From Candidatus Buchananbacteria bacterium (GTDB taxonomy: Bacteria > Patescibacteriota > Patescibacteriia > 2-01-FULL-39-33): a stretch of 53,345 bases of DNA. Position 1 is the stretch's first letter. Every line of letters begins with the position of its first letter. The notes under the pieces are model-generated. The model was not told the DNA's origin, searched no databases, and worked only from the letters and a program-made list of their open reading frames with translations. Positions 7,519 through 30,466 of this stretch are shown here, piece by piece. The DNA lies in assembly GCA_030650095.1 (NCBI GenBank), contig JAUSEE010000039.1:1-53345 (forward strand), read 5' to 3'. The translations under genes were made by a program, and so were the position numbers.

Positions 7519-8064
7519 ATGATGAATCCCTTGAATCTAAAGATTCTTTTTTTGAAGGTAAAAAATCAGGATCCGGAAGCTTTTGGCAAGTTCTACGATT
7601 TATATGTTACACGTATATATCGTTTTGTTTTTTTTAAGATAAACTCGGTTTCTGACGCCCAAGACATAACTTCAGAGGTATTTTTGAAACTTTGGCAATA
7701 CGTTAAGGCAGGCAAGGATATTAGGAATTTAAACGCCCTTACCTACATGATTGCCCGCAATATGGTTATAGATTTTTACCGCCGGAATAATAAACTTGAT
7801 GATCCGATATCCGACGAGCACTTCAATATACCAGACGAACAGAAGGATATATTGAGGCAGCAAATCATGGATTCTGAATTAAACGATGTTTTAAAGGGGA
7901 TTGAAAATTTAAAAGATGAATATAAAGAAGCTATCATATTGAAATATTTGGATGAGTTATCTATTTCCGAGATAGCTAAAATACTTAATAAGTCCAATGG
8001 CGCTGTCAGGGTGCTTTTGTACCGCGCCACCAAGGCTTTGAAAGAAAATATAAATGACCAATAA
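7519..8064 (+). CDS. ECF-family RNA polymerase sigma factor
   Basis: A 181-residue sigma-70-family protein with only regions 2 and 4. Region 2 (about residues 22-90) contains FYDLYVTRIYRFVFFKI, the DAQDITSEVFLKLWQ segment for core binding, and ALTYMIARNMVIDFYRR for -10 recognition. Region 4 (about 122-172) has LKDEYKEAIILKYLDELSISEIAKIL and KSNGAVRVLLYRATKAL for -35 recognition. It is followed with an 11-nt overlap by a membrane-anchored DUF5667-like protein, the usual place for an anti-sigma factor. Its own promoter is a perfect housekeeping consensus, so it is not obviously autoregulated. Confidence 0.92.
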   Translation: MMNPLNLKILFLKVKNQDPEAFGKFYDLYVTRIYRFVFFKINSVSDAQDITSEVFLKLWQYVKAGKDIRNLNALTYMIARNMVIDFYRRNNKLDDPISDEHFNIPDEQKDILRQQIMDSELNDVLKGIENLKDEYKEAIILKYLDELSISEIAKILNKSNGAVRVLLYRATKALKENINDQ

Positions 8065-23980: not shown

Positions 23981-24041
23981 TGTCATCCCGAGCGCAGTTG
24001 AGGGATCCCTCCATTTCGCTTTCGCTTCAGTCGGGATGACA
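23981..24041. repeat. Dispersed palindromic repeat, TGTCATCCCGAG type
   Basis: A 61-bp element with TGTCATCCCGA / TCGGGATGACA ends (11 bp, perfect). Its first 30 bases match 28537-28566, inside a coding region, at 26 of 30 positions. It is a sister family of the TGTCATTGCGAG repeats. Confidence 0.88.
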
Positions 24042-27400: not shown

Positions 27401-30400
27401 ATGGAAAACCACAAACCAAAAATTTTAATTTTTTCTTTAGCCTACCACCCATATGTCGGCGGAGCCGAAGTGGCTATAGGCGAAATTACTAAGCGGCTGG
27501 GTAATGATTTTGAGTTTCATCTGATTACCGCTAACCTGGACGGCCAGCAAAGGGCTCAAGAGGAAAATTTTAATGGCATTGGTAAAATTTATAGAGTTGG
27601 CAAAAACAAATTAAGCAAATATCTTTTCCCTTGGCTGGCTTATAAAAAAGCCATTGAACTCCAGAAAGAAAATAATTATTCCATTGTTTGGGCGATGATG
27701 GCCAATCAAGCCGGCTGGGCGGCCCTAAAGTTTAAGAAAAAATTTCCGCAGGTTAAATATTTATTGTCACTTCAAGAAGGCGATAGCGAGTTGGATATTT
27801 GGCTGAAAACATTTTTTATCCGGCCGATTTATAAAGCGATTTATCGCCAAGCCGATTGCATCCAGGCTATTTCTAATTTTTTAAAAAATCGAGCTATAAA
27901 TTTAGGAGCCAAATGTGAAATTGAAGTGGTGCCTAATGGAGTGGATATTGCCATAGCAAGCGAAGCCAAACAATCCCATGACATAAAAAAAATAATTACC
28001 ACATCCAGATTGGTTAAAAAGAACGCTGTTTCTGATTTAATAAAATCAATTAATTTACTGATTACCGGTTACCAATTGCCAGTTACTCTGATAATTGTTG
28101 GTGATGGTAAATTAAGGCATAAATTAGAAAAGTTGGTTAATCAATTGAACTTAAAAGATAAGATTGAATTTTTAGGCCAGGTTGAGAGTGATCAGGTCTA
28201 CAAATATCTAAACCAAGCTGATGTTTTTTGCCGGCCGTCGTTATCTGAAGGATTGGGCAATTCTTTTTTAGAAGCTATGGCAGTTAAGGTGCCGGTAGTG
28301 GCGACCGAAGTTGGCGGTATTGTTGATTTTTTAAAAGACAGAGAGACGGGCTGGTTTTGCCAAATTAAAAATCCTCAAAGCATTGCCGCTAGAATAAATT
28401 ATATTTTAGATCCTAAAAATAAAGAAGAAGTTGAGAGAGTAGTGGATAAAGCTTATAATTTAGTGATAGAAAAGTATAATTGGAATAATATTGGAAGTAA
28501 GATGAAAAATATTTTTAATAAACTGACAGCGTCAGCTGTCATCCCGAGCGAAGTCGAAGGATCTCTTTCTAAAAAACCAAAATTCAAGGAAGGCAAATTA
28601 AAATCCGGCATTGTTTACCCGGAATTTTTTCCTCTCTCTAAAGATGAGACAGTTTTAAATGTCGGTTGTGGCGATGGCGTGCAAGCCATAACTTATCAGC
28701 ATAATTTTAAAAAAATGGTTGGCGTGGATATAGACGGCCCCAGTTTGGCTATGGCTAAAGAAGTTGCCAGCTATTATAAAATTGATAATTTGGAATTAGT
28801 GGAGGCCAATGTGGAACAAATCCCTTTAACCGAGCAGTTTGATAAAGCCTTGGCTATTGATATTATTGAACACGTTATTCATCCTGATTTACTGGTTAAA
28901 GAAATTCATCGCTTGCTTAAAGATGGGGGAGAGTTACTGATAACTTTTCCGGCCATGCATGACAAGTGGGAGCATCTTTTCCAATTTGTCGGACGAAAAA
29001 TACTGCGCCGAAAAAGCCGGACTGTTTATAAGGCCGGCTGGGATCCCAGGCAGCATCAATATGATTATCCTCTAAAGAAGTGGCTGGCTATTTTAGAGGC
29101 CAGTGGTTTTGTTTTGGTTAAATCGCGCGCTACCACCATGTTCCCCCCACTTCATTATTTAGGCTTGCCCAGGTTTTGGTTTACCAATAAATTAATCCAT
29201 AAAATCGACCGGTTTTTTTGCCAGTGGTGGGTTTTAAAAAATTACGGCCAAGCCTTGGTGGCTGTGTTTAAAAAAGATGAGCCATCAGATTCAACTAAAA
29301 ATCCGGCCAAGGGCAAAAAAGTATTAATTGCCACCGGCATTTATCCGCCCGATATCGGCGGGCCGGCCACTATTTTAAAAGCTTTGACCAGTGCTTTGGA
29401 AAATAATAATTTTGATATAAAATTAATAACTTATTCTAATGTTAACAAGCAAAAGGCTGACGGCGATAATATATTCAGGATTAATAGGAATAAGTTTTTA
29501 AATCAAGCCCATTATTTTTTGAAGATGTACCAATTGGCCAAATGGGCTGATTTGATTTACGTTACTGATACTTATAGCGTGGGTTATTTTGCTTATTTGA
29601 TCAAAAAAATATTGAACAAAAAATACCTGGTCCGTTTTGTCGGCGACAGCGCTTGGGAAACGGCCGTAGGCAGCGGCTGGACTGATGATTATATTGTTGA
29701 TTTTCAAAAGAAAAAATATGATACTAAAATCGAAAGATTAAAAGAGCGCCGCCGGAAAATTCTAGTTAAAGCTGATAAAATTATTGCTGTCAGTCATTTT
29801 ATTGCCGGCGTGGCCGAGCAGATAGGAGTCAAATATGATAACATAAAAATTATTTATAATTCCATTGATTTTATTGGCAGTTCAATTAACGATAAAGAAG
29901 TTGAAAATATCAGGCATAAATACGGTCTAGAAACTAAAATAATTATTACTGCCTGTCGCTTAACTTCTTGGAAAGGCGTAGACGGACTTATTAAAATAAT
30001 GCCGATCCTAAAAGAAAAATTCGGCCAGGTTGTCCTTTTGGTTTTGGGTGATGGTCCGGAAATGGAAAATTTGAAAAATTTAGCTAAAAAATTAGGCGTG
30101 GAAAATAAGGTTGAATTTTTAGGCCGGGTAAAACATGAGCAGGTTGCCAATTATTTCGTCGCCGCCGATTTATTTATTTTAAACACCAATTATGAGGCGA
30201 TGTCGCATACCCTCTTGGAAGTCATGAGGGCGAAGACGCCGATTATCGCTACTACCTCAGGCGGCAATCCGGAAGTTATTGATGATCAAAAAAACGGCTT
30301 GCTGGTTTCTTATAATAATTTAGAAGAGCTGTCATCAGCGGCCATAAAGATATTAAGCGATAAGAATTTAGCTGATAATTTATCCGGCCAAGCCTTGGAA

Positions 30401-30466
30401 AAATTAAAAATATTCAATTGGGATAAAACTATTTTAGAAACAGTGGAATTATTAAATCAAATATAA
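27401..30466 (+). CDS. Three-domain glycosyltransferase-methyltransferase-glycosyltransferase fusion
   Basis: About 1021 residues. Residues 1-375 are a GT4 enzyme (FSLAYHPYVGGAEVAIGEI, VVPNGVD, EGLGNSFLEAMAVKVPVVATE). Residues about 415-600 are a class I SAM methyltransferase (VLNVGCGDGVQ, VDIDGPSLAMA, IDIIEHVIHPD). Residues about 638-1021 are a second GT4 enzyme (TGIYPPDIGGPATILKAL, ACRLTSWKGVDGL, EAMSHTLLEVMRA). Two segments are translated repeat DNA: IASEAKQS at about 187-194 and AVIPSEVEGS at 379-388, the latter exactly at the first domain junction. I chose the ATG giving MENHKPK over an upstream TTG (27365). It likely adds and methylates sugars in sequence on a growing glycan. Confidence 0.88.
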   Translation: MENHKPKILIFSLAYHPYVGGAEVAIGEITKRLGNDFEFHLITANLDGQQRAQEENFNGIGKIYRVGKNKLSKYLFPWLAYKKAIELQKENNYSIVWAMMANQAGWAALKFKKKFPQVKYLLSLQEGDSELDIWLKTFFIRPIYKAIYRQADCIQAISNFLKNRAINLGAKCEIEVVPNGVDIAIASEAKQSHDIKKIITTSRLVKKNAVSDLIKSINLLITGYQLPVTLIIVGDGKLRHKLEKLVNQLNLKDKIEFLGQVESDQVYKYLNQADVFCRPSLSEGLGNSFLEAMAVKVPVVATEVGGIVDFLKDRETGWFCQIKNPQSIAARINYILDPKNKEEVERVVDKAYNLVIEKYNWNNIGSKMKNIFNKLTASAVIPSEVEGSLSKKPKFKEGKLKSGIVYPEFFPLSKDETVLNVGCGDGVQAITYQHNFKKMVGVDIDGPSLAMAKEVASYYKIDNLELVEANVEQIPLTEQFDKALAIDIIEHVIHPDLLVKEIHRLLKDGGELLITFPAMHDKWEHLFQFVGRKILRRKSRTVYKAGWDPRQHQYDYPLKKWLAILEASGFVLVKSRATTMFPPLHYLGLPRFWFTNKLIHKIDRFFCQWWVLKNYGQALVAVFKKDEPSDSTKNPAKGKKVLIATGIYPPDIGGPATILKALTSALENNNFDIKLITYSNVNKQKADGDNIFRINRNKFLNQAHYFLKMYQLAKWADLIYVTDTYSVGYFAYLIKKILNKKYLVRFVGDSAWETAVGSGWTDDYIVDFQKKKYDTKIERLKERRRKILVKADKIIAVSHFIAGVAEQIGVKYDNIKIIYNSIDFIGSSINDKEVENIRHKYGLETKIIITACRLTSWKGVDGLIKIMPILKEKFGQVVLLVLGDGPEMENLKNLAKKLGVENKVEFLGRVKHEQVANYFVAADLFILNTNYEAMSHTLLEVMRAKTPIIATTSGGNPEVIDDQKNGLLVSYNNLEELSSAAIKILSDKNLADNLSGQALEKLKIFNWDKTILETVELLNQI
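27947..27982 (+). repeat. Diverged TGTCATTGCGAG-type repeat inside a coding region
   Basis: ATAGCAAGCGAAGCCAAACA and the next bases resemble the left half of the intergenic element (GCGAGG..CGAAGCAATCTC). It is read in frame as IASEAKQSHD, right after the PNGVD motif between the two Rossmann domains of the first glycosyltransferase. It is diverged, which suggests an old insertion. Confidence 0.6.
28537..28566 (+). repeat. TGTCATCCCGAG-type half repeat inside a coding region
   Basis: The 30 bases starting TGTCATCCCGAGCGAAG match 23981-24010 at 26 of 30 positions. They are read in frame as VIPSEVEGS between the glycosyltransferase and methyltransferase domains. Only the left arm is present. 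Confidence 0.85.

Follow-up and report, generated by a model that had tools for sequence, protein, structure and literature searches.

How a short palindromic repeat came to be read in frame between two complete enzymes, and whether it joined them, is the question raised by this locus. Most discussion of palindromic repeats that code for protein has concerned Rickettsia and some Proteobacteria. The locus lies in contig C19 (the window, 53,345 nt), which belongs to the 1.16-Mb genome of a tiny uncultured bacterium of the Patescibacteria (CPR). An ORF of 1021 aa without internal stop (27401..30466, + strand) encoded, by Pfam, a GT4 domain (residues 1-378; 27401..28534, + strand; also delimited by alignment with nine orthologues), a methyltransferase (MT) domain of the Methyltransf_11/23 type with an intact motif I, VLNVGCGDG (28571..29287, + strand), and a second GT4 domain (29315..30463, + strand). 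The fusion of MT and second GT was common to the sister species. The first GT reached its natural C-terminus at approximately NIFNKLTASA, and in the alignment this end coincided with that of nine orthologous stand-alone GTs; the MT began near residue 391, at KKPKFKEGKLKSG.

Between these two ends (GT4, residue ~378; MT, residue ~391) we observed an ATCCC-type REP arm, GTCATCCCGAGCGAAGTCGAAGGATC (28538..28563, + strand), read as VIPSEVEGS (residues 380-388, nt 28538-28564). The original prediction had matched 28537-28566 to 23981-24010, part of an intergenic ATCCC-type repeat dimer, TGTCATCCC...GGGATGACA (23981..24041, + strand), and had placed VIPSEVEGS in frame exactly between a complete GT4 and the MT. 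The match was reproduced at 26 of 30 positions, and the placement was confirmed by Pfam and by alignment. Within the window, the 26-nt arm was found at only two places (the regions of 28538 and 23981), and none of 100 shuffles gave a match. The junction arm was one of approximately 12 copies in the genome (≤3 mismatches to a degenerate pattern). The idea that no repeat is involved, and that the match arose by chance or reflects a conserved protein motif, could be argued from its shortness and from nothing else; chance was ruled out by the shuffles and the genome copies, and a protein motif by the absence of VIPSEVEGS from all orthologous GT and MT proteins, so that the probability left to this explanation is negligible. 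At the left edge of the arm, a small inverted repeat could be read in the sequence, TGACAGC-GTCA-GCTGTCA (28524..28541, + strand), and it formed a hairpin in the predicted fold of 28501-28600.

Beside the ATCCC-type family, the genome held a sister TTGC-type family, GTCATTGCGAGCGAAGCGAAGCAATC (11 copies). The tip common to both types, GTCATYSCGAG, occurred 84 times, compared with once for the reversed control, and the 84 tips grouped into 52 clusters. Approximately 20 of the 52 clusters were head-to-head pairs (opposing tips, zero mismatches) folding into long hairpins. Only five clusters overlapped ORFs of at least 150 aa and the remainder lay outside such ORFs, as would be expected if selection removes other coding insertions. 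Each arm was stop-free in five of six frames, so that the gene often stays open when a copy preserves the frame. Relatives differed sharply in repeat number: compared with the window genome, tips numbered 23 in the sister G002, 8 in G001, 28 in G008, and 0 in both G004 and G005. The 26-nt TTGC arm was present in 59 of 286 genomes of the class, and its reversed control was absent among the matches listed.

REPs of the CGTC type carry an unpaired CGTC tag at one end, often TGTC, and a stem of 8-9 bp that starts with AT and encloses a loop of 4-5; they are listed for five phyla, Patescibacteria not among them, and no dedicated transposase has been reported for them (PMC3733652). The tags of the arms described here (TGTCATTGC... 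and TGTCATCCC...) were the TGTC variant of this unpaired tag, also at one end, and were followed by stems starting with AT, as in CGTC REPs. Head-to-head dimers (~20/52 clusters), a dispersed and mostly intergenic distribution, some copies in frame, including copies in tRNA synthetase genes, and the lack of an evident dedicated transposase were further points in common. The stems closed with AT, and five contiguous pairs plus interrupted inner pairs were predicted, a contiguous stem of 5 bp in contrast to the 8-9 bp reported; these repeats therefore likely, rather than securely, belong to the CGTC class. A REP or REPIN mobilized by a RAYT would be expected to flank the Y1 transposase gene itself. 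Two Y1_Tnp genes were found in the window genome, one with a repeat dimer ~320 bp upstream and the other without. Both adjoined their own unrelated hairpins, as in IS200-type elements, so mobilization by a dedicated RAYT is unproven, neither Y1_Tnp gene showing a firm link to the repeats.

In a structure model of GT plus MT (15 sequences, mean pLDDT 86), both enzymes were well folded, and residues 381-395, covering most of the repeat, formed a coil between two helices (pLDDT ~34 at residues 381-390). A coil of very low confidence between two good folds suggests that the repeat-encoded segment is a flexible, unstructured linker of the two enzymes. Upstream of the MT, the last in-frame ATG (residue 368; 28502..28504, + strand), a possible internal start, lay inside the C-terminal helix of the GT, with GGAAG readable four bases upstream. 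No in-frame ATG, GTG, or TTG occurred between the junction repeat and SAM-binding motif I, and the next in-frame GTG after the repeat (28679) fell within that motif. As the frame reads, the repeat is translated whichever start is used, the ATG at 28502 included. The open frame might be fortuitous, with reinitiation or internal initiation at the ATG of 28502 yielding the MT, and little or none of the 1021-aa protein made; the MT alone could then carry a repeat-encoded N-terminal tail. The in-frame ATG with its upstream GGAAG, the translational adjacency of GT and MT in relatives, and the openness of the arms in most frames anyway are consistent with this, but the GT has no stop, so that a GT without MT is impossible and the full-length product is the default reading, and translation of the repeat is common to both cases. 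We regard a fortuitous frame as quite improbable. Lineage-specific changes in the MT numbered 14 here and 11 in G002, with third codon positions the most variable. With no acceleration, the MT showed no sign of pseudogenization; the domain is still constrained, which implies that it is translated. We infer that the 1021-aa protein is produced. A base error in the draft assembly may have removed a stop, though the surrounding frame was conserved over 1000 codons.

The original prediction held that the repeat could have joined separate genes and was a candidate cause of the fusion. Alignment of homologues showed that repeat-free relatives had GT and MT as separate genes. In Komeilibacteria (L073/L081), GT, MT, and GT were three genes in the same order, and the GT|MT junction had no repeat; the GT ended in TAA, and the ATG of the MT followed after two bases in another frame. 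In a Chloroflexota MAG (L083), the order was also kept, the genes were separate, and this repeat was lacking. The MT was present in 9 of 381 genomes of the class and was fused to anything only in the window genome and in G002; among these nine, GT and MT were joined in the window genome only. G002 (Candidatus Buchananbacteria bacterium RIFCSPLOWO2_01_FULL_39_33, MHIM01000038.1) was the closest relative with the locus. Its MT and second GT were fused as in the window, and its first GT and MT were split. The GT of G002 ended in VIARERK, a TTGC-type arm read in frame to TGA. The junction thus carried a repeat cluster of its own at the same place, with GT and MT in the same frame, two TGA between them, and a fresh ATG for the MT. 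Past the TTGC arm stood ATCCCGAGCAAAGCGATGAACCT, an ATCCC-like sequence matching the window arm (local score 13; equaled by 3 of 1000 shuffles).

The split repeat-free genes of the relatives, together with the stop-bearing repeat cluster at the same junction of the sister, argue that a dispersed REP-type arm is the bridge of a lineage-specific GT-MT fusion. We consider this the best reading and a probable one, although sequence cannot prove cause. The proposal of joined genes was thus borne out as far as the split relatives and the restriction of the fusion to one lineage are concerned, and qualified by G002, which is unfused despite its junction repeats. Insertion alone is therefore insufficient as a cause; the copy must also be stop-free. 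In the repeat-bridged history, repeat material would have landed, in an ancestor, in the short gap between GT stop and MT start of a conserved GT-MT-GT operon. The likeliest order would be separate genes, then the MT-GT fusion in the ancestor of the genus, then the arrival of repeats at the GT|MT boundary, with two outcomes, one bearing stops (G002) and the other free of them and fused (window genome). In the latter, the surviving arm, in frame and stop-free, would have replaced the old stop and start. The fusion may have been caused by the insertion itself or by insertion and subsequent loss of a stop-containing piece, and the junction repeats of the two species could represent one insertion event or two.

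Alternatively, ordinary loss of stop and start may have fused the genes, and the repeat may have been inserted later into an existing tolerant linker. In-frame insertion into existing proteins does occur here, in loops of LeuRS, CysRS, and Tgt; the downstream MT-GT fusion, which is older, showed no clear repeat in the window genome; and an Anaerolineae MAG (ACE_NR_CHLO5, L085) had a GT4-MT fusion with a repeat-free joint. This history, however, requires two steps, a fusion and a later, separate insertion exactly at the joint; the normal GT C-terminus stands directly before the arm; and the nearest relative is unfused, yet already has repeat material where the old stop stood, and so comes near a repeat-bearing, still split junction. 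We consider such a late insertion unlikely. The fusion in L085 resembled that of the window in its MT, which was of the same family (50% identical), and in having a GT4 domain on the N-terminal side of the MT. Its GT, however, belonged to a different subfamily and did not match the first GT of the window significantly, so that the fusion is convergent. The original prediction had named, as a finding that would speak against it, the same fusion without the repeat in distant lineages; L085 is such a case in its MT but not in its GT, and indicates that the repeat is not required in general and that MT fusion is possible otherwise. A Peregrinibacteria locus (L092) was rejected as a further fusion: its 703-residue frame consisted of a stand-alone MT preceded by a long, GC-rich open stretch, and no recognizable domain sequence was found in that upstream part.

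Repeats were also seen at the other junction of the operon. In G002, the MT-GT linker PSSLSATAKPG (L056 6510-6550, minus strand) was encoded by a small palindrome, CTTCGCTTTCAGCTACGGCGAAG. The older MT-GT fusion may also have been bridged by a repeat, of which no trace was visible in the window genome. In Komeilibacteria (L073 1376-1500, minus strand), a CCCTTCGACTCC...GTCGCTCAGGG repeat lay between MT and second GT; it was flanked by a 35-bp direct duplication including the GT start codon and extended the MT reading frame.

A second repeat piece had been proposed in the first GT, in the loop after PNGVD. This stretch, IASEAKQS (residues 185-192; 27953..27976, + strand), corresponded to a degenerate TTGC-type arm, with 18 of 22 positions matching at 27954-27975. 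Neither the 200 simulated windows nor the 2000 codon shuffles of the ORF yielded a match with four or fewer mismatches, and IASEAKQS was also encoded by an intact repeat copy in the LeuRS of the window genome. At the level of the nucleotide match, the stretch is a weaker but real repeat match. The loop was not longer than in relatives, and G002 had a repeat-like KNYELRIKNN of equal length, so that the piece looks like replacement or decay in a variable loop and not like a clean extra insertion. The first GT of G002 (L056 8400-8460, minus strand, and 7990-8040) contained a further in-frame palindrome, CCTGCCTGCCGGTAGGCAGG, read as ACLPVGR, and a ATTAAGAATTATGAATTAAGAATT repeat at the loop corresponding to IASEAKQS.

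Other in-frame copies, for which a genome search had been suggested, were present. Four of the 52 clusters were in frame inside conserved genes (GT-MT-GT, LeuRS, CysRS, and Tgt, assigned by Pfam); a fifth overlapped an open frame at its 5′ end, where it probably precedes the true start. In the window genome, the inserts of LeuRS and Tgt were whole repeat dimers and, in family alignments, were missing from most relatives. Compared with solved homologues, the insert sites measured ~32 vs. ~6 residues in LeuRS and ~28 vs. ~3 in Tgt. Different repeats occupied the same site in three species in both genes: at the Tgt site, G002 had a CCTCCTTACC-type palindrome and G008 a TTGC/ATCCC dimer, and at the LeuRS site both carried yet other palindromes. 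In CysRS, a repeat stood at one site shared by the window genome and G002. Among 30 repeat loci sampled across the class, in-frame copies occurred, besides the Tgt of the window genome, in LysRS, LeuRS, a penicillin-binding transpeptidase, a GT4, and a GT28 (MurG-like) protein, all from other genomes.

The LeuRS family (L136 2667-5561 in the window genome; L192-L200) varied in length from ~810 to 1182 residues. Extra domains, named by eye, stood at fixed sites: one, ASCH-like or alpha/beta-hydrolase-like, after RQRYWGEPIPLVHC, and a NUDIX-like segment, VGGVESGENAIEAGLREIQEETGY, in or near the editing region; the LeuRS of L224 had a hydrolase fold by Pfam. The Tgt family (L183-L191) was without the Cys-x-Cys-x2-Cys zinc ligands that precede YSRAYLHHL in solved bacterial Tgt.

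In-frame palindromic repeats are known from the Rickettsia palindromic elements (RPEs) and from other REPs inside genes, including those of tRNA synthetases (PMC3733652, PMC10969869, PMC2229807). The mechanism is like these and already known; what is new is the host, Patescibacteria, and the bridging of two enzymes by a repeat. The comparison with Rickettsia drawn at the outset proved apt. As with RPEs, short palindromes in a reduced genome were both intergenic and in frame in unrelated conserved genes, each dimer adding ~20-30 residues, and in-frame inserts absent from relatives, the mark of RPEs, were found in LeuRS, CysRS, Tgt, and GT-MT-GT by comparison with relatives and solved structures. 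At the sequence level, only the CGTC tag class was shared, RPE-4 and RPE-6 being CGTC-type REPs (PMC3733652). Unlike RPEs, the repeats described here come from a different phylum, have arms of ~26 nt, and include one copy between two complete enzymes that are separate in relatives. In-frame fusions of the MITE/ERIC/RU type in enterobacteria have been proposed as a source of new proteins (PMC2229807). These likewise fuse a mobile-repeat peptide in frame to host ORFs, but they are 100-170 bp long and add a terminal or internal peptide, whereas here a single 26-nt arm forms an inter-enzyme linker. PMC2229807, PMC10969869, and PMC3733652 describe repeat peptides within single genes or at their ends, and no case of two whole genes fused by a repeat was found there; literature searches with the repeat DNA or peptide strings returned nothing relevant.

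More broadly, the palindromic repeats of Patescibacteria might be recurrent ready-made, mostly stop-free linkers that insert, in different species, at the same permissive positions of essential enzymes and, at gene boundaries, turn adjacent operon genes into multidomain enzymes, GT-MT-GT and its split sister being two stages of one such fusion; we put this forward tentatively, at somewhat less than an even chance. Within one Patescibacteria class, several families had such repeats in essential enzymes, and sister species display the states before and after. Inserts such as VIASEAKQS or LSLRGSR in Patescibacteria proteins call for caution, as they derive from repeats and are no conserved domains. 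A natural series of a rare kind is available at the GT|MT junction, from three genes, through two genes with a stop-bearing repeat between GT and MT, to one gene with a stop-free repeat, and with it the idea that mobile repeats build multidomain proteins becomes directly testable.
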